Shown one piece after another: positions 2,017 to 20,493 of a stretch of 21,337 nucleotides of DNA. The notes beneath the pieces are model-generated. The model saw nothing but the letters and a program-made list of their open reading frames with translations. It was not told the DNA's origin and searched no databases. Position 1 is the stretch's first letter, and the number at the start of each line of letters is the position of its first letter. Source of the DNA: Chloroflexota bacterium. Lineage in GTDB: Bacteria > Chloroflexota > UBA6077 > CF-72. The stretch is from contig JAFAPL010000520.1 in assembly GCA_019247135.1 (NCBI GenBank), positions 1-21,337 on the forward strand. The letters are read 5' to 3'. A program made the position numbers and the translations under genes.

Positions 2017-2653
2017 GCGATTGAGCGTAACGCCGGAGCGCGAGAAGCATCTGCCCATTACTCTGTCGTGGCGGCAGCCTGGACTGGGACCGCGGCCACA
2101 CGACCGCGGCAAAGAGCAGCAACCCGAGGCTCAGCGGGAGCACCCATGGCACGCTCAGTGTGATCGGCTCCCCTGATGCGGCGGCAGCGGAAGCCCCACG
2201 GCGACCGCCGAGGTAGGTCACCAGCCTCTGGATGTGCCCGCCGACGACTGTCGCCTCGACCTCCTCGTCGAAATTCGCCGGCGGCGTGGCGCCAGAAACG
2301 GTGCGTCGCACGTGCTCGGCCCAGGTGACCGTGTCGCCCGAGACGTGGCGGTCGCCGAGCGTGTACGTGTCCTGCAGGCGATAGGCCATGATCGCGCGCA
2401 CCGCGTCTCGGCCGGACCAGTTGACGCCCTGACTACTGCGGAGCTCGGGCGAGTCGCCGAAACTGGCCATCGTCGCGTCCAGGTCGCGCGCCTCGCGTGC
2501 GGCGATGAAGTCCTCGACCACCCGCGCGGCGTCGTCGCTGCTGGTCAACTGTGGCGGCGCGCACGCGGTGGCCGCGAGCGCAGCGAGCGTAGCGAGCACC
2601 AGCGCCACCCACAGCACTCCGACGTACCGCACCCCCGGAGCATATCGTCTCAA
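1985..2653 (-). CDS. NTF2-like (SnoaL/DUF4440-type) lipoprotein with C-terminal membrane segment
   Basis: This 222-residue protein begins [20 protein letters not shown], then [12 protein letters not shown]. That is a basic N-region, a long hydrophobic stretch and a lipobox-like ATAC, suggesting a lipid-anchored exported protein. The middle ([34 protein letters not shown]...[13 protein letters not shown]) is typical of NTF2-like/SnoaL cone folds. A second hydrophobic helix ([18 protein letters not shown]) and an Arg-rich tail follow near the C terminus, so the protein may be anchored at both ends. The start is TTG 2653, which overlaps the stop of the GH172 gene as TTGA and has a GGAG 5 nt before it. 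A GTG 21 nt further in is an alternative. The ligand or enzymatic role is unknown. Confidence 0.7.
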
Positions 2654-3708
2654 ATGATCTCCAGGTAATCCCGATCGGGCAGCACCGGAAACGTGGCAGT
2701 GGGCAGCGTCTGATACCAGTACGCGACCGACGCAATATCGCATTGCAGAGGCAAATACCGCCGGCCACTGCGCCAACCTAACGCCTGCAACGTGACCCTC
2801 AGGCGCGAGGTGAACCGGATCGGATCCACAATATGCCAGCGGTAAGCTCCGAAACGCTGCTGGGAGCGGTACAGGCCATCCGGTCGCAACACCTGGTGCA
2901 TGCCCAGAAACGGGGTGGAATACGTGGTGTACTCGCCGTTGACATCCCAGTTCCAGGCGCCGCCGAAATAATCCTCGGTGCCGGTGCCGCAAATCGTCGG
3001 AAACTCCACGTCGTCGTCCATGAAGAACTTGAATTCACCTTCGCCCCACCAGCCGGAGTTCGTCACTCCGACGGCGAGGTATGTACCGACGTAGTGGCCG
3101 GCGCCCGCGACGCCGTCCAGGACCCTGTAGACATCGCGGTACGGCAGTGGATTCACACGCCGGAACTGCGCATGAAAATACGCCGCGCTCTCCGGTACAT
3201 CGTGCAGCGCGTAATTGAGCTGGTAGTAGCAGGTCAGCGGCTCAGGTCCGCGGTTCTCGAGCGTTAGCCGCGCGCGCTGCCGGAATGGCATCTCCCAGAA
3301 ACAGTTCAGTCCGTTGTTGGGGTTGACCGTCACCGGCAGTGAGTTCAGCTGCGCGAACGGACCCCAGCCGGCGGCGAAAAAATCCGCCAGCGGCGACTCT
3401 ACCGAGGGCTGTGCCTGTCCGTCCCAGTAGATCCGCAGGATGGCATCGCGACCGAGCGGGCGGCCGGTGAACCACATACTGCGGACAGACCCCGGCCCCT
3501 CGATGTCGCCCAATGTGAACGTTTCGCCGGCGCCGATCGAGACCGAGGGCGAGATCTTCCAGCCAGCTCCGAGGTCGCGCGCGGCCGCCGCTCCGGTGCC
3601 GCTCATTGCCATGCCGCCACTCCCAGGCGCGCCGGAGAAGTTCTCAGGACTGACCGAGCGGGACCGCGCATTCGAGATCTGCGCCAGATTGCTGAGCATT
3701 GGAAGCAT
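2650..3708 (-). CDS. GH172 / DUF2961 family glycoside hydrolase-like protein
   Basis: This is a 352-residue protein of the DUF2961 family, now called GH172. Characterised members are alpha-D-fructofuranosidases, a difructose-dianhydride I synthase and related furanosidases. Family blocks include 'GAGETFTLGDIEGPGSVRSMWFTG' near the N terminus, 'LRIYWDGQ', 'WEMPFRQRARLTLENRG' and the strongly conserved 'CGTGTEDYFGGAWNW' around residues 237-251. No signal peptide is visible, so a cytoplasmic location is likely. The start is ATG 3708 (MLPML): a TANNNT box lies 9 nt upstream, and the longer frame to 3744 would run into the divergent gene. It is the first gene of a minus-strand set with the NTF2-like lipoprotein and msrB. 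The actual sugar substrate cannot be told from sequence. Confidence 0.85.
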   Translation of the reverse strand: MLPMLSNLAQISNARSRSVSPENFSGAPGSGGMAMSGTGAAAARDLGAGWKISPSVSIGAGETFTLGDIEGPGSVRSMWFTGRPLGRDAILRIYWDGQAQPSVESPLADFFAAGWGPFAQLNSLPVTVNPNNGLNCFWEMPFRQRARLTLENRGPEPLTCYYQLNYALHDVPESAAYFHAQFRRVNPLPYRDVYRVLDGVAGAGHYVGTYLAVGVTNSGWWGEGEFKFFMDDDVEFPTICGTGTEDYFGGAWNWDVNGEYTTYSTPFLGMHQVLRPDGLYRSQQRFGAYRWHIVDPIRFTSRLRVTLQALGWRSGRRYLPLQCDIASVAYWYQTLPTATFPVLPDRDYLEII

Positions 3709-3717
3709 GCGCCGCTC

Positions 3718-3727
3718 AGGGTACGCT
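3718..3727. promoter_or_regulatory. Shared divergent -10 element AGGGTACGCT (GH172 gene / MetE-like gene)
   Basis: The 25 bp between the start codons (3709-3733) contain AGGGTACGCT. The plus strand reads TACGCT (3722-3727) 6 nt before ATG 3734; the minus strand reads TACCCT (3723-3718) 9 nt before ATG 3708. Both fit the TANNNT -10 consensus and share the central TA. With a normal -10 to start distance, transcription would begin at or within a few nt of each start codon, so both mRNAs would be leaderless. No -35 hexamers are evident. This also selects 3734 over 3743 as the start of the MetE-like gene. Confidence 0.55.
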
Positions 3728-3733
3728 GGCGGC

Positions 3734-4834
3734 ATGCCAGGCATGCTTCGCGCCGATCACGTCGGAAGTCTTCTCCGACCCGCGGCGCTGCTGGAGGCGC
3801 GTGCCGCTTTTTCTCGTGGCGCGTTGTCTGCAGACGTATTGCGGCAGCAAGAAGACGCGGCGATTCTCGAAGCCTTGCGGCGGCAAGGCGACGTCGGCCT
3901 GGAAACCTTCACCGATGGCGAGTTCCGACGTGGCTCCTGGATCACGGACATGGCCGAAGCCGTCGAGGGTTTCGCGCCGCAGAGTCGGACCATGCAATGG
4001 AAGGGTCCGTCCGGCGGAGAAGAAGCGAGCACGTCGAGCATCGTGGCTGGTCGGTTACGTGCGCGCCGCCGACTGACCGGGCACGAAGCGGCATTCGCGG
4101 TGCGTCACGCTCGTGGAGCAGTGAAGGTCACGCTGCCGGCGCCGTCCAACTTTTATGTCGCGAGCTGGAAACCGGGTGTCACCGACGCGGTGTATGGATC
4201 ACGGCGCGAGATGGGCGATGCGGCTGCGCAGATCGTTCGCAACGAAATCTCGGCGTTGTTCGACGAAGGCGTCGCGTACGTCCAATTGGATGCGCCGTTT
4301 TACAGCTCGTTTATCGACGAGAGCGAGCGCGCGCGGCTACGTTCGACTGGAGTGGACCCTGAGGCTGGGATCCTGGACGCGGTTGCGGTTGATTCGGCGG
4401 CGGTTGCTGAACTTGCACGGCGCGGCAGAACCCTCGCGCTGCACGTGTGTCGGGGGAACTCGCGCAGTCGGTGGCTTGCCGAAGGCGCGTACGACTCGAT
4501 TGCGGAGCCGCTTTTCACGACGCTGGACGTGGATCGCTTGCTGCTGGAGTACGATTCGCCGCGCTCCGGTTCGTTCGCGCCGCTCCGCTTCGTCCCGCGT
4601 GACCGGATCGCGGTGCTCGGCCTGGTCACGACGAAAGAACCGCAATTGGAGTCGCCTGACGACCTCCGCCGGCGGATCGACTCCGCCACCGCGTACCTGC
4701 CACTGGAGCAGTTGGCGGTGAGCCCCCAATGCGGCTTCGCCTCAGTCGCCGCGGGCAACCTGCTCAGCGAAGCCGATCAATGGCGCAAACTGGCCCTGGT
4801 GGTCGAAGTCGCCCGCGCCGTCTGGGGCCAGTGA
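3734..4834 (+). CDS. MetE-like cobalamin-independent methionine synthase family protein
   Basis: This 366-residue protein matches the C-terminal catalytic (zinc) domain of MetE, as in the short YxjG/YxjH-type proteins. It opens with 'MLRADHVGSLLRP' and 'TDGEFRRGSW', the usual family start. All four zinc ligands can be placed: His237 and Cys239 in ALHVCRGN, Glu272 in LLEYDSPRSG and Cys333 in SPQCGFAS. Such enzymes transfer a methyl group to a thiol such as homocysteine; the donor in stand-alone short forms is often not methyltetrahydrofolate and must be considered unknown. The start is ATG 3734, supported by the TACGCT box; ATG 3743 is the alternative. An open frame continues upstream to 3440 but crosses the divergent GH172 gene. 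A role as demethylase partner of the nearby Rieske oxygenase is only speculation. Confidence 0.87.
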   Translation: MPGMLRADHVGSLLRPAALLEARAAFSRGALSADVLRQQEDAAILEALRRQGDVGLETFTDGEFRRGSWITDMAEAVEGFAPQSRTMQWKGPSGGEEASTSSIVAGRLRARRRLTGHEAAFAVRHARGAVKVTLPAPSNFYVASWKPGVTDAVYGSRREMGDAAAQIVRNEISALFDEGVAYVQLDAPFYSSFIDESERARLRSTGVDPEAGILDAVAVDSAAVAELARRGRTLALHVCRGNSRSRWLAEGAYDSIAEPLFTTLDVDRLLLEYDSPRSGSFAPLRFVPRDRIAVLGLVTTKEPQLESPDDLRRRIDSATAYLPLEQLAVSPQCGFASVAAGNLLSEADQWRKLALVVEVARAVWGQ

Positions 4835-4873
4835 TCCGTTGCTCAGAACAAAGCCTGCACGCTCGCGGGAATG

Positions 4874-4950
4874 TGGTCGGGCGGAGAGGATTTGAACCTC
4901 CGACCCCAGCAACCCCATTGCTGTGCGCTACCAGACTGCGCTACCGCCCG
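4874..4950 (-). tRNA. tRNA-Pro (anticodon GGG), CCA encoded
   Basis: Read on the minus strand from 4950, the acceptor arm CGGGCGG pairs with CCGCCCG, followed by discriminator A and an encoded CCA (4876-4874). The D arm is GCGC AGTCTGGTA GCGC, the anticodon stem is CAGCA/TGCTG with loop ATGGGGT, and the T arm is GGAGG TTCAAAT CCTC-type. The anticodon GGG is at 4916-4914 with G37 next to it, as usual for proline tRNAs, and reads CCC/CCU. The CGGGCGGTAGCGCAG start is also characteristic of bacterial tRNA-Pro. Without CCA the gene is 4877-4950. Confidence 0.95.
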
Positions 4951-4959
4951 TGTCGGGCT

Positions 4960-4965
4960 AGTGTA
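4960..4965 (-). promoter_or_regulatory. Candidate -10 box for tRNA-Pro
   Basis: TACACT on the minus strand ends 9 nt before the mature tRNA 5' end, which fits a transcription start about 3 nt upstream of the tRNA. A clear -35 was not found: the sequence about 17 bp upstream is TGCCGC. Confidence 0.4.
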
Positions 4966-5016
4966 GCGCAGCCTCGCGGGGCGCGGCATTCGGGATCGTG
5001 GGGGGCAGGCGTGCAG

Positions 5017-5022
5017 TACGCT
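5017..5022 (+). promoter_or_regulatory. Candidate -10 box for the Rieske oxygenase gene
   Basis: TACGCT fits TANNNT and would give a transcription start near 5029. That leaves a short leader of about 26 nt containing the GGGGGG ribosome-binding stretch before GTG 5055. No convincing -35 hexamer is visible. Unlike the divergent pairs, this gene appears to have a normal leader. Confidence 0.35.
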
Positions 5023-5054
5023 TGGCGTGAAGGTCGTTGCGGGGGGTAAGCAAG

Positions 5055-6371
5055 GTGCTGAGCAAGCAAGACAACGAACGGGTGTGCCGCGTCGGGCCAG
5101 GCACCGTGATGGGGAACCTGATGCGCCAGTACTGGCTGCCAGCGTTGCTCTCGTCGGAGCTGCCGGGGCCCGACAGCGACCCCGTTCGCGTCATGCTGCT
5201 CGGCGAAAAGCTCATCGCCTTCAGAGACAGCAATGGCCAGGTCGGCCTGGTCCAGAACAACTGCCCGCATCGCGGCGCATCGCTGTTCTTCGGCCGCAAC
5301 GAGGAGTGCGGCCTGCGCTGCGTGTACCACGGCTGGAAATTCGACACCTCCGGTCAATGCGTGGACATGCCCAACGAGCCAGCCGAGTCCGACTTTCGAA
5401 CGAAAGTCAGGGCTATGGCCTACCCCACCCGCGAACGGGGTGGGATCGTCTTCGCCTATATGGGCCCGCGATCGGAGCCGCCGCCATTACCCGACATTGA
5501 GGCCAATTCGCTGCCCGAGGGCACCTGGACCGTCGGCGCCGTTCAGCGTCAGTGCAACTGGCTGCAAGCGCTCGAGGGCGATATCGATACCTCGCACTTC
5601 GGCTTTTTGCATTTCGGGGCGACGGATGCGGACTCGGTCGAGCCAGATACGTTCCAGTACTACACGTTGAAGGACCGCTCGCCGCGGTACGCGGTGCTCG
5701 ATACCGACTACGGCGCCAGCTATGGGGCCTATCGTCCAGCGCAGCCCGGCATGCTCTACTGGCGCATCTGCCACTTCCTGTTCCCGTTCTGGACGATGAT
5801 TCCGACCGGCGTGCTGGGTCTGCAGAAGATCGCTCGCGCCTGGGTGCCGATGGACGACGAGCACACGCTGTTCTTCACGATGTCGCCGAAACCGGCCGTC
5901 GATCCGCGTCATGCACGGCCGTACCCGAGAAAAATCCCGCAGGTCGGACCGATGCGGCCAAACACCACCGACTGGTTCGGACGCTTTCGACTCGAGAACT
6001 CGGCCGCCAACGACTACAAGATCGATCGAGACATGCAGCGGCGGCGGGAAGACTTCACGGGCATCCGTGGCATCCACGACCAGGATCAGGCGGTGACCGA
6101 GAGCATGGGGCCGATCTACGACCGGTCCACCGAGCGCCTCGGTAGTAGCGACGCGATGGTCATTCGAGTGCGGCGGCGCCTGCTGGCCGCGGCGGACGAG
6201 CTCGATGCGAAGGGGGCGGTGCCGTATTCGGTGGACCATCCGGAGATCTATCGACAGCGATCGGGTGGCACCTTCCTACCGGAGGGCGCGAACTGGTTCG
6301 AGGCAACCGCCGAGCTGCGCAGGGCGTACGTCGATCACCCGGAGCTGGACCCCAGTCTGGCACGCCTCTGA
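5055..6371 (+). CDS. Rieske non-heme iron oxygenase, aromatic ring-hydroxylating/demethylating oxygenase subunit
   Basis: This 438-residue protein has an N-terminal Rieske [2Fe-2S] centre, CPH-x16-CVYH (Cys70, His72, Cys89, His92). The catalytic domain carries the mononuclear iron motif D-x2-H-x4-H in GDIDTSHFGFLH (Asp178, His181, His186). It opens with 'RVGPGTVMGNLMRQYWLPALL', typical of the phthalate 4,5-dioxygenase/LigX-like group of single-subunit oxygenases, which hydroxylate or O-demethylate aromatic acids. The start is GTG 5055, with a GGGGGG stretch about 8 nt upstream; a TTG at 5037 is a less likely alternative. No ferredoxin or flavin reductase partner is adjacent, so electrons must come from proteins encoded elsewhere. 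It converges with the F420-type oxidoreductase gene. The exact substrate is not predictable. Confidence 0.9.
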   Translation: MLSKQDNERVCRVGPGTVMGNLMRQYWLPALLSSELPGPDSDPVRVMLLGEKLIAFRDSNGQVGLVQNNCPHRGASLFFGRNEECGLRCVYHGWKFDTSGQCVDMPNEPAESDFRTKVRAMAYPTRERGGIVFAYMGPRSEPPPLPDIEANSLPEGTWTVGAVQRQCNWLQALEGDIDTSHFGFLHFGATDADSVEPDTFQYYTLKDRSPRYAVLDTDYGASYGAYRPAQPGMLYWRICHFLFPFWTMIPTGVLGLQKIARAWVPMDDEHTLFFTMSPKPAVDPRHARPYPRKIPQVGPMRPNTTDWFGRFRLENSAANDYKIDRDMQRRREDFTGIRGIHDQDQAVTESMGPIYDRSTERLGSSDAMVIRVRRRLLAAADELDAKGAVPYSVDHPEIYRQRSGGTFLPEGANWFEATAELRRAYVDHPELDPSLARL

Positions 6372-6390
6372 GTTTCTTCACGGCGTGCCA
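6358..6390. terminator. Candidate bidirectional hairpin terminator between convergent genes
   Basis: TGGCACGCC (6358-6366) and GGCGTGCCA (6382-6390) form a perfect 9-bp stem around a 15-nt loop. The loop contains the Rieske stop codon, and the structure sits between two convergent stop codons 24 bp apart. It lacks a T tract on either strand, so termination would be less efficient than a classical intrinsic terminator. Confidence 0.4.
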
Positions 6391-6395
6391 CAGCG

Positions 6396-7292
6396 TCACG
6401 CCGCTCGAAATGGCTCGAACAATCGCACCAGGCGGTCCAGCGTCGGCAGCACGTCGTCGGGCGAGCTCGAGAAATGGCGGAGGTGCACTCGAAGCACCGT
6501 CACACCGATCTCGATGAGCGTCGGAACGCGGTCCAGCGATCGCTCCAGGGAGCCATCAACCGCGCCGAGGCCGTCGCAAATGTCCAGCTTCGAGACATCC
6601 CGACCAGCAGACCCAAAACGGTCGCGCAAGGTCGCGATCGCGTCCGCCTTCTGCTGGAGGGTCATGCCCAGTCCACCATAGGGCATCCACCCGTCCCCCC
6701 AGGTCACGATGCGGCGGATCTGGCGCGGCGTGAACTTGCCGCCAAACCAGATCGGGATGCGCTCTCCGGCGGCCGGCCGCGGCGAGCAGAACATGCCGTC
6801 GAAGTTGACGTGCGTCGAGTGGAACGACGCGGGCACCTGTTCCCACAGCACGCGGCACGCGGCGATCGTGTCGTCCAGGATCTCACCGCGCTTGTAGTAA
6901 TCCACGCCGAGGGCGTCGTACTCGTCCTTCTGCCAGCTCGCGGTCACGCCCATGACGAACCGGCCGTGCGAGAGCGCATGAAGGGTTGCGGCTGTTTTCG
7001 CGAGGAGACCGGCCGGTCGTAGTGGAGCGATGACGATGCCGGACAGCACCTTGATGCGCTGCGTCGCTCCGGCAAAGGCGGCCAGCGTGCTGAGGACCTC
7101 GGTTTGCGGCATCTCCAGGTGGTGCCGCTCCCAGCCCTGGCCCGCCTCGAGCGCATGCAAGCCCATCAACACGTGCTCCGTGCTGTCGATGTAGTCAACG
7201 CCGGCGGCATCCGCCGCGCGAGCGACCTCGAGTAACCGGTGCTGCTCCGCGATCGGGTACATGGCGGCTTCGGCGGTGACGCAGAGTCTCAT
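6396..7292 (-). CDS. LLM class (luciferase-like) F420-dependent oxidoreductase
   Basis: This 298-residue protein has the TIM-barrel luciferase-like monooxygenase family fold. Typical segments are 'LLEVARAADAAGVDYIDSTEHVL', 'TQRIKVLSGIVIAPLRPAGLLAKTAATLHALSHGRFVMGVTASW', 'EYDALGVDYYKRGEILDD' and 'PRPAAGERIPIWFGG'. The 'G.P...GGK' sugar-phosphate region and overall pattern fit F420-dependent subgroups better than FMN-dependent alkanal monooxygenases, but the cofactor is inferred by family. The start is ATG 7292; a symmetric -10 element is shared with the divergent dehydrogenase gene and suggests a leaderless message. The reaction could be hydride transfer to, or oxygenation of, an organic substrate. 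The surrounding catabolic genes hint at aromatic or hydroxyacid metabolism, without proof. Confidence 0.87.
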   Translation of the reverse strand: MRLCVTAEAAMYPIAEQHRLLEVARAADAAGVDYIDSTEHVLMGLHALEAGQGWERHHLEMPQTEVLSTLAAFAGATQRIKVLSGIVIAPLRPAGLLAKTAATLHALSHGRFVMGVTASWQKDEYDALGVDYYKRGEILDDTIAACRVLWEQVPASFHSTHVNFDGMFCSPRPAAGERIPIWFGGKFTPRQIRRIVTWGDGWMPYGGLGMTLQQKADAIATLRDRFGSAGRDVSKLDICDGLGAVDGSLERSLDRVPTLIEIGVTVLRVHLRHFSSSPDDVLPTLDRLVRLFEPFRAA

Positions 7293-7299
7293 CGGGCGG

Positions 7300-7313
7300 C
7301 GATGCTAGCATCG
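7300..7313. promoter_or_regulatory. Perfect 14-bp palindrome with shared divergent -10 boxes
   Basis: CGATGCTAGCATCG is a perfect palindrome in the 28 bp between two divergent start codons. It contains ATGCTAGCAT (7302-7311), so both strands read the -10 box TAGCAT, each ending exactly 9 nt before its start codon (ATG 7321 plus, ATG 7292 minus). The most direct reading is a symmetric bidirectional promoter giving near-leaderless transcripts. The palindrome could in addition be an operator for a dimeric regulator. Confidence 0.6.
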
Positions 7314-7320
7314 GCCTTCG

Positions 7321-8319
7321 ATGCATGGGACCGTGCTGCTGGCCGCCGGACTGGGACAGTTCGAACCGTTAGCCGAGCGGCTGCGGGCGCACGGCTGCGA
7401 CGTCCAGACGTTCAGCGGCCGCGAACAGCTTGCGGCCTTGATTCGCGAGGCGGACGTCGTGGTCGGATCGCCCGCTCAAAAGTTCCAGGTTGACGGCACG
7501 ATCCTGAGCACGGGCACGCGGCTGCGTGCTGTCAACAGCATGGTCATCGGCACGGAGATCATCGACGTCGATGCGTGTACGGAACTCGGCATCCTGGTCG
7601 CGAACGGGGCGATCGCCGAAAACTTCCTCGGCGTGGCCGAATCCACGGTCATGCTCATCCTGGCCCTGACGCTCGACCTCAAGGCAAAGGAGCGCACCCT
7701 CCGCGAGGGGACCAGCTTTCGGCCGTCTTCGACTCGGTCAGCGCTGTTGAACGGCCGCACCATCGGACTGATCGGGCTCGGACGTGTTGGACGCGCCGTG
7801 GCGGAGCGTCTGCAGGGCTGGAATGTGCGGCTCCTCGGGTACGACCCATATGTCGACGGAGCACCGCTCGCGGTCGAGCTGGTGCAGCTTGATGAACTTT
7901 TGAGATCGAGCGACATCGTCTCGATTCACGTGGCCTTGAACAACAGCTCACGTGGACTGCTCGGCGCACGCGAGCTGGCGCTCATGCCTCCGCATGCGTA
8001 TCTGTTGAACACGGCGCGTGGCAACGTCGTCGACGAGCCGGCCCTGGCCGAGGCACTGAACAGCGGGCGCCTCGCGGGCGCGGCCGTCGACGCATGGACG
8101 GAGGAACCAACGCCGCGCGACAACCCGTTACTGTCGGTGGACCCCGACAAGATCATCGTGACCGGTCACTGCATCGCGCACAGCGCGCGGCTCCCATCGT
8201 TGCTGGTGGATGCGGCTGAAGAGAACGTCCTGCGCGAGCTGCGCGGTGAAGTGCCGCGCTTCGTGGTGAACCCCGCCGTTCTCACAACGTGGAACGCGCG
8301 GGTCGCCGCGCTAGCTTGA
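7321..8319 (+). CDS. D-2-hydroxyacid dehydrogenase family protein (NAD(P)-dependent)
   Basis: This 332-residue protein belongs to the D-isomer-specific 2-hydroxyacid dehydrogenase family (SerA, glyoxylate/hydroxypyruvate reductase, D-lactate dehydrogenase). It has the Rossmann motif GLIGLGRVGRAV (residues 149-160), an acidic residue at the end of the second strand (Asp175 in GYDPY, favouring NAD), and the catalytic set Arg233 in LNTARG, Glu262 in DAWTEEP and His283 in VTGHCIAHS. The last block is usually TPH-[IL]-[AG], so GHCIAHS is a mild departure. The length is normal for two-domain members without an ACT domain. The start ATG 7321 is fixed by the symmetric -10 element. It converges with the amidohydrolase gene, leaving only 2 bp between stops. 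The substrate is unknown; hydroxypyruvate-like acids are plausible. Confidence 0.9.
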   Translation: MHGTVLLAAGLGQFEPLAERLRAHGCDVQTFSGREQLAALIREADVVVGSPAQKFQVDGTILSTGTRLRAVNSMVIGTEIIDVDACTELGILVANGAIAENFLGVAESTVMLILALTLDLKAKERTLREGTSFRPSSTRSALLNGRTIGLIGLGRVGRAVAERLQGWNVRLLGYDPYVDGAPLAVELVQLDELLRSSDIVSIHVALNNSSRGLLGARELALMPPHAYLLNTARGNVVDEPALAEALNSGRLAGAAVDAWTEEPTPRDNPLLSVDPDKIIVTGHCIAHSARLPSLLVDAAEENVLRELRGEVPRFVVNPAVLTTWNARVAALA

Positions 8320-8340
8320 TCTCACCGGGCCGCAGTGAGA
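8320..8340. terminator. Short hairpin at a convergent gene end
   Basis: TCTCAC and GTGAGA form a 6-bp stem with a 9-nt loop across the 2-bp gap between the convergent dehydrogenase and amidohydrolase genes, mostly inside the latter's coding end. It is GC-poor in the stem and has no T tract, so it is only a weak terminator candidate. Confidence 0.2.
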
Positions 8341-9308
8341 CCGAGCAGCCCGACCGCGTTGTCGCGCTTGATCTGCTGTTTATCCCCTTCGGATAGGCCA
8401 GCGACGCCGTCCACGATCTCTACCGGGTTCTCCTGGCCCATGTCGAACGGGTAGTCCGTTCCGAGCACGACCTGGGACGCGCCTACCTGAGCAATGATGT
8501 GAGCCAGGTTGAACGCGTTGTACATGAGGTTGTCCACCCAGAGCCGCCGAACGTAGTGGCTCGGCGGGTTGGGAATCGTCTGCGCCTCTGGACGGACCTC
8601 ATAGCCGTGGTCGCTCCGACTGCAATACGAGGGCAAGTAGCCGCCGCCATGCGCGCCGAGGATCTTCAAGCGCGGGTGCCGCTCGAGCACACCGCCGAAG
8701 ATGATGTGCGTCAACGCCAGCGTCGTGTCGAGTGGATTGCCGATGATATTGGCGAGGTAGTATTTCGCGACGCGGTCACCGAGCGTGGTGCCGGAGGGGT
8801 GGATGAAGACGAGCGCGCCGTGCTGCTCGGCGGCGGCCCAGAACGGCTCGAAACGCTCGTCGTCCAGGTCGAGTCCCTGGACGTTGCTGGAAATCTCCAC
8901 CCCTTTGAAGGCGCCGCTCGAAGACATCGCGCCTTCGAGCTGGCGTGCCGCAAGGTCGGGAAACTGGAGCGATACGAACGCGAGCCCGACGAACCGCTCG
9001 GGATTCGACTGGCAAACGTGCTGCACGGCCGTATTCGCGGCCTCCACGATCTGTTCCGATAGCTCCCTGTCGGCCCAGTAGGCGTAGTTGGGCATGTGGC
9101 TGACGACCTGCATGTCGATGCCTTCTCGGTCCATCGTCTCGATGCGGACGTCCAGGCTCTCGAACATGCGCTTGTAGCGCGACTGCATGAGAAACTCGTT
9201 GTGCGGGTTGGCGTCCCGCGATGGTGCACGAGAGGTCAGCTCGACGAGCTTCGGCGACAACACGTGGGCGTGCATGTCTACGGTCCGGGGCGATGGCACG
9301 CGCGCCAT
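8322..9308 (-). CDS. ACMSD-like amidohydrolase family protein (metal-dependent decarboxylase/hydrolase)
   Basis: This 328-residue TIM-barrel protein belongs to the amidohydrolase_2 group. That group includes 2-amino-3-carboxymuconate-6-semialdehyde decarboxylase (ACMSD) and gamma-resorcylate and 5-carboxyvanillate decarboxylases. The metal ligands are visible: HxH in VDMHAH (His13, His15), His170 in VFIHPSG and Asp285 in LGTDYPF. His220 in GAHGGGYLP corresponds to the catalytic histidine. The length matches ACMSD (about 330). It begins at ATG 9308 with TAGCGT 6 nt upstream, sharing a divergent promoter region with the E1 alpha gene. Decarboxylation of an aromatic or ring-opened acid would fit the neighbouring Rieske oxygenase, but hydrolysis cannot be excluded by sequence alone. 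Confidence 0.88.
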   Translation of the reverse strand: MARVPSPRTVDMHAHVLSPKLVELTSRAPSRDANPHNEFLMQSRYKRMFESLDVRIETMDREGIDMQVVSHMPNYAYWADRELSEQIVEAANTAVQHVCQSNPERFVGLAFVSLQFPDLAARQLEGAMSSSGAFKGVEISSNVQGLDLDDERFEPFWAAAEQHGALVFIHPSGTTLGDRVAKYYLANIIGNPLDTTLALTHIIFGGVLERHPRLKILGAHGGGYLPSYCSRSDHGYEVRPEAQTIPNPPSHYVRRLWVDNLMYNAFNLAHIIAQVGASQVVLGTDYPFDMGQENPVEIVDGVAGLSEGDKQQIKRDNAVGLLGLTAAR

Positions 9309-9314
9309 GGTAGG

Positions 9315-9324
9315 ACGCTATCAT
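9315..9324. promoter_or_regulatory. Shared divergent -10 element ACGCTATCAT (amidohydrolase / E1 alpha operon)
   Basis: In the 24 bp between start codons, ACGCTATCAT gives TATCAT on the plus strand, 8 nt before GTG 9333, and TAGCGT on the minus strand, 6 nt before ATG 9308. The two -10 boxes share the central TA at 9319-9320. Predicted starts fall at or within 2 nt of each start codon, implying leaderless messages, and no Shine-Dalgarno is present for either gene. It is the likely promoter of the whole E1 alpha-E1 beta-E2-VOC operon. Confidence 0.55.
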
Positions 9325-9332
9325 CGGCGTTC

Positions 9333-10385
9333 GTGGCGGTCGGCTCGACGAGCCTGGAGGAAGTGCTCGCCGCGTGTATGCCGGCGCTGGCCCGCGCGCC
9401 GCGGCCGTTCAGCGTGCTCGACCCCGCGGGCAGCCTGGTTGGACCCGAGCCCGAACTGAGTACGGAACAGCTCCAGTCGGCGTATCGCTGGATGGTGTTT
9501 GGCCGCCAGCTCGACGAACGCGGTCTCCAGCTCCAGCGCCAGGGTCGCGTCGGCGTGTGGGGACCGATGATCGGTCAGGAGGCCGCACAGGTCGGCCTCG
9601 GCATGGTCATGCACGACGGTGATTGGATCTTCCCGTCGTATCGGGAGGCGATCACGCTGTGTATGCGCGGACTCAGTCTGACCGACCTGTTCGCCTACTA
9701 CCGCGGCCTGTACTGGCCCGCCGATCCCGCGCGCACGGGCATCTTTCCACTCCAGATCGTGATTGGCGATCAGTCGCTGCACGCGGTTGGCGCAGGCATG
9801 GCGTTCGCCCTGCGTGACGAGCCACGCGTCGCGGTGGGTGTGATCGGTGATGGCGCGACCTCGCAGGGCGATTTTCTCGAGGCGCTGAATTTCTCGGCCG
9901 TGTTCAACGCCCGAACGGTGCTGTTCATCCAGAACAACCAGTGGGCCATCAGCATGCCGCGCGCACAGCAAACCGCGAGCGAGACGCTTGCGCAAAAAGG
10001 CCTCGCGCAGGGTGTGACCAGCCTGCTGGTCGACGGCAATGACGTGCTCGCCGTCTATACCGCTTGCGCGTGGGCCTTCTTCAGGGCACGCCGCGGCGAT
10101 GGCCCCGTGCTCATCGAAGCGTTGACGTATCGAATTGGCGCGCACACAACCGCCGACGACCCTCGGCGTTATCAGCCAGCGGATGAGATCGAAGCGTGGC
10201 GACGGCGGGATCCTCTGCCGCGTTTTCAGCGCTACCTGGAGCAGCGATCGCTATGGCAGCCGTCACTCGAAGACACGGCGAGAGCCGACGCGTTACGCGA
10301 GGTCGACGACGCGCTTCAGCAGGCAGAAGCGCGACCAACGCCTTCCTTCGACGAATACGTGCAGGTAGCGACACCTGGTGGCTGA
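9333..10385 (+). CDS. 2-oxoacid dehydrogenase E1 component, alpha subunit (pyruvate or branched-chain type)
   Basis: This 350-residue thiamine diphosphate enzyme subunit catalyses, with E1 beta, decarboxylation of a 2-oxoacid and transfer of the acyl group to the E2 lipoyl arm. The ThDP/Mg motif runs from GDG (residues 172-174, GDGATSQGDFLEALNF) to NN (201-202, IQNNQWAIS). The active-site block 'YRIGAHTTADDPRRY' and the GQEA block (81-84) are present. The start is GTG 9333, not the longer open frame to 9096, which overlaps the divergent gene. It is supported by TATCAT 8 nt upstream. The gene overlaps E1 beta by 8 nt. Sequence features resemble Gram-positive PDH E1 alpha, but branched-chain substrates are equally plausible given the epimerase-like gene in the operon. 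Confidence 0.93.
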   Translation: MAVGSTSLEEVLAACMPALARAPRPFSVLDPAGSLVGPEPELSTEQLQSAYRWMVFGRQLDERGLQLQRQGRVGVWGPMIGQEAAQVGLGMVMHDGDWIFPSYREAITLCMRGLSLTDLFAYYRGLYWPADPARTGIFPLQIVIGDQSLHAVGAGMAFALRDEPRVAVGVIGDGATSQGDFLEALNFSAVFNARTVLFIQNNQWAISMPRAQQTASETLAQKGLAQGVTSLLVDGNDVLAVYTACAWAFFRARRGDGPVLIEALTYRIGAHTTADDPRRYQPADEIEAWRRRDPLPRFQRYLEQRSLWQPSLEDTARADALREVDDALQQAEARPTPSFDEYVQVATPGG

Positions 10386-13056: not shown

Positions 13057-13156
13057 TCAGATGCAGGCTGGCGCGGGATCAGTCCAATGATTTCTCAAAG
13101 GTCACCTTTGGAATCCGCGGGTCGAGGCGGCAGCCCGCATGACAAACCGGATTTCG
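13057..13156 (+). repeat. 100-bp direct repeat, copy 1
   Basis: This copy begins TCAGATGCAGGCTGGCGCGG and ends AAACCGGATTTCG. Inside is a near-perfect inverted repeat CAAAGGT-C-ACCTTTG, and further on GCGGGT and GCCCGC can pair as a second stem. It differs from copy 2 at four positions only. Confidence 0.85.
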
Positions 13157-13194
13157 TGGGCGCATCGCGCGGGGCTCCGCTCTGGCGTGGCATT

Positions 13195-13294
13195 TCAGAT
13201 GCGAGCTGGCGCGGGATCAGTCCGATGATTTCTCAAAGGTCACCTTTAGAATCCGCGGGTCGAGGCGGCAGCCCGCATGACAAACCGGATTTCG
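13195..13294 (+). repeat. 100-bp direct repeat, copy 2
   Basis: This copy lies 138 bp downstream of copy 1 and is identical apart from four substitutions (A/G, G/A, A/G and G/A). The CAAAGGT-C-ACCTTT core is kept with one end base changed. Sequence just upstream (CTCTGGCGTGGCATTTCAG) recurs before copy 3 as CTCTGGCGTGGCATCTCAG, so the true unit extends leftwards there. Confidence 0.85.
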
Positions 13295-13320
13295 CGCGAG
13301 CTCTGCTCTGGCGTGGCATC

Positions 13321-13412
13321 TCAGATGCGGGCTGGCGCGCAACCGCCCTTGCGTCAACTTTCGAAGTTGAACCACTGGCTCGATCGAGCGGCAGCCCGCA
13401 CGCGAAACCGCG
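13321..13412 (+). repeat. Diverged third copy of the repeat
   Basis: The ends match the other copies (TCAGATGCGGGCTGGCGCG at the left, CGGCAGCCCGCA and AAACCG at the right), and the spacing between these ends differs from copy 2 by only 3 nt. The centre is replaced by other sequence that carries a different inverted repeat, TCAACTT-TCG-AAGTTGA (13354-13370), near the position of the CAAAGGT hairpin. Confidence 0.65.
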
Positions 13413-13462
13413 AAAGCGCCCCGTGAGCAAAGCGCGAAACGACCTCGCGCAGCGGGCCAAAT

Positions 13463-13488
13463 GAGTCTCAGCGCAACGCGCTAGACTC
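13463..13488. promoter_or_regulatory. Strong inverted repeat just upstream of the sensor kinase
   Basis: GAGTCTCAGCGC (13463-13474) and GCGCTAGACTC (13478-13488) form an 11-bp stem with one bulged C and an AAC loop. Its right arm contains TAGACT (13482-13487), a TANNNT -10 candidate that would start transcription near 13494, about 11 nt before ATG 13505. It could be an operator over the promoter or a terminator for upstream reading without a T tract. Confidence 0.45.
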
Positions 13489-18738: not shown

Positions 18739-20493
18739 TCACGCCAGTGCGACGTTATTGAAGTAATAGATATACGTCGGTTGCATGACGAAATTCTGAA
18801 CGCGCTTCCGAAGCGCAACCTGCTGCTTCATGTGCGTCAGGAACACCCAGGGTGCGTCATCGACGATGCGCGTTTCGGCCTGATTGAACAGAGCCTTGCG
18901 CTTGGCCTGGTCCGTTTCCTGATCGGCTTGATTCAACAGTTGATCCACTTCAGGGACGCTATACCAGGACGTGTTGGTTGCGCCCTTGTTCTCGGTCAGG
19001 AAAAAGACATTGAGGAAGTTATCGGGATCCCCAGTGTCCGCCTGCCAGCCGTTCAGCTCTACGCCGAATTTGCCCGCGCGGCGGTCAACGCGGAACTGTG
19101 CCCACTCCTCGGTCTTGATCTCACTGTTGACGCCAATGTCCTGCCAGTACTGCTGAATCGCTTCGGCCAGCTTGGAACCCTGCGGGTTGTAGCCGCGCGC
19201 CACGGTGTACGCCCAGAGGGTGAGCGTGTGACCGTCGTAGCCCGAATCCTTGAGCAACTGTTTGGCTTTATCGGGATCGAACGGATAGCCCTTGATGTCC
19301 GCATCGAAGCCCCATGAGGTTGGTGGCAGAACACCGGTTTCGGGTACGCCCGCGCCGCTGTACAGGCTGTCGGCAAGCTCCTGTTTGTTCACCGCGTAGT
19401 TCAAGGCCTGACGGAACGACTTGTTCTGCCATTCCGCCTGCTGCAGGTTGAAGTCCGCGTAGCTGACGTTCAAGCCTGGTTGCTCGAGCACGTCCGTGTC
19501 GTTCTGGCCTTTGAGTGAGGCGACGTCTTTTGGATCGATCGGCCAGGCCACGTCGGCCTCGCCGCGCTGGATCTTGAGCGCGCGGACCGATGGCTCGGGG
19601 ACGGTCTGGAACACGATACGTTGCAGCTTCGGTTTGGCTCCCCAGTAGCCGTCGAAAAGCTCGACCGTGATGTGGTCGTTCTTGACCCATTCGACGAACT
19701 TGAACGGTCCCGTTCCCACGGGCGCATCGTTGATGCCCTTGCCAACCTTTTGCAGTTGTTGCATGGACATGATGAACCCGGGTGGGATCGATAGATTCGA
19801 CAGAAGCGGCGAGTATCGATCTTTCAGCGTGAAGGTGACGTCCATGTCACCGGTCGCTTCGACTTTGCTGACGACGTTGCCGATATACGTGTCGATGAAC
19901 GGGAACCCGCCGTAATCGCCCTGCGCCTCCTGGTACAGCGGGTTGTCCTTGTTGATGCTGCGATCGAAGCTGAATGCGACAGCCTTCGCGTTCAGGTCCG
20001 AGCCGTCGTGGAACTTGACGCCTTTGCGCAAGTGGAAGACGACGCTCTTGCCGTCCGGCGAGGTGTCCCAGCTTTCGGCCAGGGCGGGCTCGACGTCAGT
20101 ACCGCCCGACTTGTATTTGACCAGCCCTTCGTACATGGCCGTATCGGCCATGAAGCCTTCCTGAGCCGTCATCGCGGGCGGATCGAGGCGATCCGTATCC
20201 GCGTCCCACACGAACGTGAGGGTGTTGGCGGCGGTCGCCTGCACGGCGGCTGGCGCCGTGGTCGCAGCGGCAGCCGGTGCCGTGGTCGCCGCGGGTGCGG
20301 TCGTCGGCGCGGCGGGTGCGGTGGTCGGTTTGGCGGCAGCGGCTGCGGTGGGCGCGGTCGTCGGCTGAGCGGCTGGCGCGGTGGTGGGCGACGCTGCGGG
20401 CGCCGCGGGACCGCATGCCGCCAGGAGTCCCATGCCAGTGGCCACGCCGGCCAGGCTCAGGAATCGGCGGCGAGTCAGCGACGTACGTGTCAT
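18739..20493 (-). CDS. Extracellular solute-binding lipoprotein, family 5 (peptide/nickel type)
   Basis: This 584-residue substrate-binding protein serves the DppB/DppC-like permeases. The N terminus MTRTSLTRRRFLSLAGVATG carries a twin-arginine motif (TRRRFLS) and a lipobox LLAAC (Cys27), so it is likely exported folded and lipid-anchored outside. A Thr-Ala-Pro linker of about 60 residues follows (about 29-88), then the SBP_bac_5 domain: 'ALAESWDTSPDGKSVVFHLRKGVKFHDGSDLNAKAVAFSFDR', 'GTGPFKFVEW', 'FRQALNYAVNKQEL' and 'FDPDKAKQLLKDSGY'. The start ATG 20493 gives this signal peptide and has GGGGAG 11 nt upstream; the longer frame to 20559 would add a non-signal sequence. The ligand cannot be read from sequence. 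Confidence 0.94.
   Translation of the reverse strand: MTRTSLTRRRFLSLAGVATGMGLLAACGPAAPAASPTTAPAAQPTTAPTAAAAAKPTTAPAAPTTAPAATTAPAAAATTAPAAVQATAANTLTFVWDADTDRLDPPAMTAQEGFMADTAMYEGLVKYKSGGTDVEPALAESWDTSPDGKSVVFHLRKGVKFHDGSDLNAKAVAFSFDRSINKDNPLYQEAQGDYGGFPFIDTYIGNVVSKVEATGDMDVTFTLKDRYSPLLSNLSIPPGFIMSMQQLQKVGKGINDAPVGTGPFKFVEWVKNDHITVELFDGYWGAKPKLQRIVFQTVPEPSVRALKIQRGEADVAWPIDPKDVASLKGQNDTDVLEQPGLNVSYADFNLQQAEWQNKSFRQALNYAVNKQELADSLYSGAGVPETGVLPPTSWGFDADIKGYPFDPDKAKQLLKDSGYDGHTLTLWAYTVARGYNPQGSKLAEAIQQYWQDIGVNSEIKTEEWAQFRVDRRAGKFGVELNGWQADTGDPDNFLNVFFLTENKGATNTSWYSVPEVDQLLNQADQETDQAKRKALFNQAETRIVDDAPWVFLTHMKQQVALRKRVQNFVMQPTYIYYFNNVALA

Follow-up and report, generated by a model that had tools for sequence, protein, structure and literature searches.

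Candidate bidirectional promoters combined with predicted leaderless starts in compact divergent gene pairs of a soil Chloroflexota bacterium and its relatives

Three compact divergent gaps in the window

The stretch of DNA analysed here, called the window throughout, is a 21,337-bp contig (JAFAPL010000520.1) from a soil Chloroflexota bacterium with a GC content of 58–67% per 2 kb. Here, we investigated the short gaps between its divergently transcribed genes. A gene caller blind to promoter motifs found three divergent protein-coding pairs in the window. A head-to-head pair of tRNA-Pro (ggg; 4874–4950, minus strand) and a Rieske gene on the plus strand was set aside, as it is not a protein–protein pair. 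All three gaps contain the same core, ANNNTANNNT (A-NNN-TA-NNN-T), which consists of two inverted, overlapping TANNNT -10 boxes with one TA in common.

Gap 1 (3709–3733, 25 bp) separates a minus-strand gene at 2650–3708, presumably DUF2961-like from the look of its sequence and with no NCBIfam match, from a plus-strand methionine-synthase-like gene of the MetE C-terminal family (3734–4834; PRK06520, 1.1e-82, below its cut-off). The core, AGGGTACGCT, occupies both strands of 3718–3727. Its minus-strand box, TACCCT (3718–3723), lies 9 nt before the ATG of the DUF2961-like gene, and its plus-strand box, TACGCT (3722–3727), lies 6 nt before ATG 3734. Gap 2 (7293–7320, 28 bp) lies between a minus-strand LLM-class F420-dependent oxidoreductase gene (6396–7292; TIGR03619, above cut-off) and a plus-strand gene of the D-2-hydroxyacid dehydrogenase family (7321–8319; several families matched, all below their cut-offs). 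Its core, ATGCTAGCAT at 7302–7311, is a perfect palindrome: both strands read TAGCAT, and each copy lies 9 nt from its ATG.

Gap 3, as first read, spans 9309–9332 (24 bp), with core ACGCTATCAT at 9315–9324 and spacings of 6 and 8 nt. The minus-strand gene at 8322–9308 is one we take to be amidohydrolase-like from the look of its sequence (no NCBIfam match); it starts at ATG 9308 or, as in a relative discussed below, at GTG 9299. The plus-strand gene is pyruvate dehydrogenase E1 alpha-like (9333–10385; TIGR03181, 5.8e-118, just below its cut-off), and its -10 box, TATCAT (9319–9324), lies 8 nt from GTG 9333. Counted from first base to first base, the two start codons lie 26, 29, and 25 nt from each other in gaps 1, 2, and 3, respectively.

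The first-pass annotation had described three gaps of 24–28 bp with one core and 6–9 nt to each start, and the letters are as it claimed. In 100,000 shuffles of each gap, the core with both spacings of 6–9 nt arose in 0.016%, 0.029%, and 0.44% of cases for gaps 1, 2, and 3, and the core at any place in the gap arose in 0.07%, 0.5%, and 2.1%, figures that are too favourable since the pattern was picked after the gaps had been seen. ANNNTANNNT occurs nine times in the whole window. Gaps 1 and 2 show, by their letters, the symmetric overlap of -10 elements on both strands that defines bidirectional promoters, and the sequence marks of leaderless genes are both present: TANNNT about 6–9 nt before the start and no Shine-Dalgarno sequence. 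The words GGAG, GAGG, and AGGA are absent within 20 nt of all six start codons, in agreement with the earlier observation that the gaps carry no Shine-Dalgarno sequence. The contrast once drawn with genes elsewhere in the window that have Shine-Dalgarno-like leaders could not be confirmed. The Rieske start, GTG 5055, is preceded by GGGGGG and by none of the three words, and the start of the binding protein gene is uncertain, with GGGGAG seen by eye upstream of one candidate ATG near 20493.

Leaderless-type starts in related genomes

For comparison we used three Chloroflexota metagenome-assembled genomes (MAGs), G001, G002, and G003 (the kin), which have a long gene order in common with the window and are listed in one family. 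They belong to the four Chloroflexi/Chloroflexota MAGs that provide the best relatives of the window's E1-alpha protein, at 66–71% identity. About 2.07 Mb of kin contigs were analysed, with genes called by a purpose-written program blind to promoters. The start counts, the unsupervised start model, and its classification of gene pairs described in this section include the window.

TANNNT stands 6–9 nt before 18.3% of 416 divergent-gene starts, compared with 0.4% of 15,297 in-gene ATG or GTG codons. An unsupervised start model recovered the same element, with frequencies of 0.81 (T), 0.91 (A), and 0.98 (T) at its fixed letters and a spacing peak of 6–9 nt, and it also learned a GGAGG-like Shine-Dalgarno class. 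The mean leaderless posterior was 0.34 for divergent genes (576 genes), 0.20 for distant co-directional genes, and 0.14 for close co-directional genes; the Shine-Dalgarno posterior ran the other way (0.28, 0.34, and 0.41). Among the genes of 288 divergent pairs, 38.5% fitted the leaderless class best, compared with 0–0.5% of divergent starts when the upstream DNA was shuffled (three shuffles). Judged by sequence, then, leaderless-type promoters are real and common in the kin family, and the position-specific TANNNT bears out the earlier proposal of leaderless promoters in this lineage. About a third of the divergently placed genes look leaderless. Because the model finds leaderless and Shine-Dalgarno classes in quantity, we conclude that the lineage mixes both modes.

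We looked for a -35 element upstream of the leaderless boxes in 252 sequences, and no position of TTGAC stood out (best 4% at any position). Since the -10 box marks the start, it can help start-codon annotation in these Chloroflexota. Separately, TACGCT lies 7 nt ahead of the ATG of the window gene that starts at 2016 (which we take to be MsrB-like), apparently within the end of the upstream gene, and may be an internal leaderless promoter.

The shared core is enriched in short divergent gaps

We then counted the core in 278 kin divergent pairs. The window and the six kin contigs that carry orthologs of window genes were left out, as were pairs in which the contig end cuts a gene; core counts also omit gaps shorter than 16 bp. 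ANNNTANNNT is present in 11 of 21 divergent gaps of 16–40 bp, compared with 0.88 expected and a maximum of 4 in 500 shuffles. When starts were called without any motif, the core was found in 10 of 24 short divergent gaps (0.82 expected, maximum 5). Convergent gaps have it in 0 of 29 cases (0.47 expected) and co-directional gaps in 6 of 188 (3.2 expected). The first-pass annotation had set as its check an enrichment in short divergent gaps that is absent from convergent ones, and the kin show this pattern. In divergent gaps of 41–80 bp, the core is present in 6 of 44 (3.6 expected).

Two kinds of overlap between the boxes also stand out. Among 22 gaps of 12–40 bp, a shift of +4 between the boxes, which gives the shared TA, occurs 11 times (0.84 expected), a shift of -1, which gives TANNNTA, occurs 7 times (0.98 expected), and six other shifts occur once each. 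These two shifts are the two overlaps that need just four fixed letters. In gaps of 41–80 bp each of them occurs 6 times, with about 3.6 expected, and in gaps of 81–200 bp there is no excess, with 19 cases of shift +4 (16.8 expected) and 14 of shift -1 (17.0 expected).

A related signal is seen from the side of a single box. The letter four bases before TA is an A in 16 of 21 cases when the partner start lies 5–16 nt beyond it, in 3 of 10 at 17–22 nt, and in 10 of 80 at 23–60 nt. In this test the partner start was taken from coding potential alone with a slack of 4, the window was left out and ortholog contigs were kept, and counts are per gene and distance bin, so that one pair or gene may count repeatedly. 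Finally, 52 of the 288 divergent pairs appear leaderless on both sides. Eight of them share the TA, and all eight belong to the 11 pairs whose gaps are shorter than 46 bp; two of the eight come from the window and one is the gap 1 ortholog in G003.

Conservation of the three gaps differs

The gene pair at gap 1 is divergent in all three kin. Orthologs of the DUF2961-like gene are 75% identical in G002 and G003, and G001 has two pieces (75% and 80%). In G003, the orthologous gap is 26 bp long and retains a shared core, AGAGTACGCT, with spacings of 7 and 9 nt. TACGCT lies 8 and 9 nt before the methionine-synthase-like gene in G002 and G003, respectively. The longer orthologous gaps of G002 and G001 (L214, L218) each have one extended -10 sequence in inverted copies at the gap ends (TACGCTAGG twice in G002, TACCATT twice in G001), and they look as if inserted DNA had split a palindromic shared core. 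As a general trend of divergent leaderless pairs, such matched inverted copies are not significant in 42 pairs (p = 0.086; one of four position sets gave 0.03). The two pieces of the G001 DUF2961-like ortholog, on contig C195 (L216, L218), are neighbours in different frames, which reflects either a broken gene or an assembly error.

In G001, G002, and G003, a co-directional gene lies upstream of the oxidoreductase gene of gap 2, and the dehydrogenase gene is not there; the best kin match of the dehydrogenase is 50% identical and located elsewhere. The gap 2 pair is therefore particular to the window. In G001 the oxidoreductase and amidohydrolase-like genes adjoin each other, whereas in the window the dehydrogenase gene (7321–8319) separates them, through either an insertion here or a loss there.

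For gap 3, the motif-blind caller placed the minus start at 9275. An in-frame GTG at 9299 is backed by the G001 ortholog and has a different, conserved -10 box, TACCAT on the minus strand (ATGGTA at 9307–9312), 7 nt away. In G001, the amidohydrolase-like gene also fits a GTG start, with the same box 6 nt away; by eye, the preceding 39 nt contain no other ATG, GTG, or TTG in frame. The motif-aware start model picks GTG 9299 too, with a leaderless posterior of only 0.44. With this start, gap 3 becomes 33 bp long with two separate boxes. The minus-strand box given earlier, TAGCGT (9315–9320), 6 nt from ATG 9308, is absent in G001. Since the ATGGTA box and the same GTG are kept in G001 and the window, they count against that earlier minus box. 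On the plus side, TATCAT is identical at 8 nt before the E1-alpha GTG in all four genomes (the window, G001, G002, and G003). The divergent partner of E1-alpha is the amidohydrolase-like gene in the window and G001 and, in G002 and G003, a gene that presumably encodes a glycosyltransferase, from the look of its sequence. The exact core AAAGTATCAT is present in the 31-bp G002 gap, yet 13 nt from the ATG of the partner, and the 24-bp G003 gap has GAAGTATCAT, which is without the A. As an example of a shared core, then, gap 3 stands by its letters and its plus box, and its minus start and box are doubtful. Most likely, it is a tight pair of separate predicted leaderless promoters, ATGGTA and TATCAT.

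A minority design rather than a genome-scale rule

The first-pass annotation had proposed a genome-scale rule. Only 22 of the 278 kin divergent gaps (8%) are 40 bp or shorter, and the median gap is 134 bp. Most divergent pairs in the kin do not show the design, with 11 core-bearing short gaps among the 278. Several core-bearing short gaps appear to serve one leaderless gene and one gene with a short leader. We also applied a strict start test in which both starts, chosen among candidates by coding potential, had to lie 5–10 nt from the core. This test, which is start-limited, found 4 of 208 pairs, namely the three of the window and one from the kin, and two decoy arrangements of the letters gave two pairs each; it is evidence against a general rule. 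As short gaps are rare and most double-leaderless pairs have two separate boxes, we conclude that the shared-core promoter is a recurring minority design, an exception in the relatives, and not a genome-scale rule.

A strict ATG/ATG version of the pattern was searched in the whole genomes of G001–G003 (21.7 Mb), where it has 23 sites, compared with 31 for a composition-matched control pattern. Open reading frame (ORF) context was scored for all 23 target sites and for 22 of the 31 control sites. Two divergent open ORFs, each at least 100 aa long, flank 8 of the 23 target sites (10 if two ambiguous calls are counted), compared with 1 of the 22 control sites. At two of the target sites, L264 and L280, both ORFs are open, but the filter rejected these sites as the caller had placed them within a gene. 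The sole control site to pass (L297) itself carries two abutting -10 boxes, ATCGTA and TACGAT.

Farther afield, the pattern without gene context has 70 sites in 16 genomes of the order, compared with 51 for a reversed control, which is uninformative alone. Of 46 sites outside the family, 20 were examined. Two of these (L312, L317) are flanked on both sides by an ORF of 100 aa or more with a coding score above 12; the coding model had been trained on family sequences, and no inside-a-gene filter was applied. In 59 Actinobacterial loci with 136 divergent pairs, the leaderless signal is strong and sharp at 6–7 nt, and neither a shared core nor a gap of 1–37 bp was found in any of 36 double-leaderless pairs; these loci all surround one orthologous gene and are not independent.

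Proposed mechanism and alternative explanations

Given the sequences, their enrichment, and their partial conservation, gaps 1 and 2 are probably bidirectional promoters fused with leaderless starts, and gap 3 is likely a case of separate boxes. For the actual start sites, the use of the core by polymerase, and the translation of leaderless mRNAs, we infer the following. The shared TA in gaps 1 and 2 would form positions -12/-11 of both inverted TANNNT boxes, recognized by the housekeeping sigma factor. The holoenzyme would bind the shared -10 element in either orientation, one polymerase at a time, and open the same TA. With 6–9 nt from box to start, transcription would begin at or within a few nucleotides of each start codon and give two leaderless, or nearly leaderless, mRNAs with 5' ends about 26–29 nt apart, and ribosomes would load on the 5' AUG or GUG of each. 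For two genes no more than 40 bp apart, a common box may be the favoured and cheapest solution.

The two transcription units had also been called mutually exclusive. Steric exclusion does follow from the geometry, as binding one way would block the other way at that moment. Expression of both genes need not be mutually exclusive, and obligatory exclusion is unsupported: in Escherichia coli, basal firing was described as too low for competition at all five bidirectional promoters tested, with exclusion emerging once one side is activated (PMC12825309).

Several observations weigh against the shared-promoter interpretation. All start codons used here are predictions of a purpose-written script, and the mean leaderless posterior on shuffled DNA is still 0.11, compared with 0.34 on real DNA. 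In only 2 of 21 kin short gaps does the core lie 5–10 nt from both starts (0.13 expected), and centred cores are also in excess in co-directional gaps of 16–40 bp (3 of 188, compared with 0.3 expected). At the gap 1 orthologs of G002 and G001, the boxes are separate and the gaps measure 83 and 108 bp, and no ortholog of the gap 2 pair was found at this place in G001–G003. In a different explanation, two independent leaderless promoters simply lie close together and the shared TA is not one element. It would account for E1-alpha, which retains TATCAT in all four genomes despite changes in the gene and box on its divergent side, and for the separate boxes in 44 of the 52 double-leaderless pairs. 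A shared box, with four fixed letters instead of six, would also be the likeliest chance form once genes are close. Yet the shared form of gap 1 is retained in two lineages, as is that of the L264/L270 locus described below, and the double-leaderless pairs with gaps under 46 bp sit exactly at shift +4 in 8 of 11 cases, even if two of the eight are from the window and one is a gap 1 ortholog. We regard mere proximity as rather unlikely.

The cores could also be operators, that is, palindromes for a regulator with a TA box inside by chance. The gap 2 core is a perfect palindrome, and another perfect palindrome, GGTACGTTAACGTACC, is kept in G001 and G003 (L264, L270) between genes that we take to be Crp/Fnr-like and metallo-hydrolase-like from the look of their sequences. 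However, the bases that separate the fixed A, TA, and T vary by gap, and the recurring part is TANNNT at a fixed distance from the starts; furthermore, none of the six genes flanking the window gaps is regulator-like (two of the six judged by eye only). An operator in this sense is very improbable. We give equally little credence to a genome-wide organisation rule confined to the window's own species: two or three of the three window pairs have the design, compared with 11 core-bearing short gaps among the 278 kin pairs, but the sample of three was selected after it had been seen and the minus side of gap 3 is doubtful. A more ambitious version of the shared promoter seems unlikely to us as well. 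It would make the doubly leaderless shared-TA promoter a selected wiring element, by which a soil Chloroflexota family holds gene pairs about 25 bp apart, one 10-bp near-palindrome serves both promoters and sets both 5' ends, and polymerase orientation couples expression; the species of the window would rely on it far more than the kin do.

At L264/L270, the flanking ORFs are divergent and are 70% and 78% identical between G001 and G003. The palindrome there is at the same time a shared-TA core and possibly serves as an operator for autoregulation.

Comparison with known promoters

Bidirectional promoters with symmetrical -10 elements that give divergent RNAs were described by Warman, Grainger, and colleagues, with preferred start-site spacings of 18, 10, and 23 bp (PMC12825309, PMC10268837). 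By the geometry worked out here, the shared-TA core corresponds to the 23-bp class and TANNNTA to the 18-bp class. Unlike those promoters, among which 18 bp is commonest, the 23-bp form is the commoner one in our compact gaps (11 compared with 7, small numbers), and at least one side is often predicted to begin at the start codon. The word leaderless does not appear in one of these reports (PMC12825309).

Leaderless TANNNT promoters are known from Actinobacteria and Deinococcus-Thermus (PMC3898074, PMC3160421, PMC12340547), with TANNNT around 12 bp before the start codon, and leaderless genes were reported in 4 of 12 Chloroflexi genomes (4.7%) (PMC3160421). Closely juxtaposed divergent promoters have been called common, and in the divergent pair of prpD and its regulator both start sites are at the start codons (PMC3898074). 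The accessible parts of this literature describe no -10 box common to two leaderless genes (PMC3898074, PMC3160421). The closest single cases differ in arrangement. The csoR-cueA divergon of Bradyrhizobium has partly overlapping -10 elements and a csoR mRNA that is leaderless by 5' RACE, but only that side is leaderless (the cueA leader is 42 nt), and a CsoR box lies on top (PMC5057107). The lysG-lysE pair of Mycobacterium tuberculosis has divergent, overlapping promoters around an inverted repeat, and a further lysE promoter gives a leaderless transcript, but the intergenic region is 108 bp and the leaderless promoter is separate (PMC5648196). Doubly leaderless shared-box pairs were not found as a class in the literature on leaderless genes combined with bidirectional or overlapping divergent promoters or with Chloroflexi, of which few subscription papers were covered. 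Both halves, leaderless TANNNT genes and bidirectional promoters, are known, and the compact gaps would combine them.

If true, this would be about the smallest practical divergent arrangement, with two promoters and two translation starts in about 25 bp, and it would link the literatures on leaderless genes and on bidirectional promoters. Such pairs would also be natural places to test polymerase orientation free of leader RNA effects.

Other features of the window

A short ORF at 13087–13464 precedes a long histidine-kinase-like gene. It contains the repeated peptide ISQRSPLESAGRGGSPHDKPDF and looks like a repeated DNA unit.

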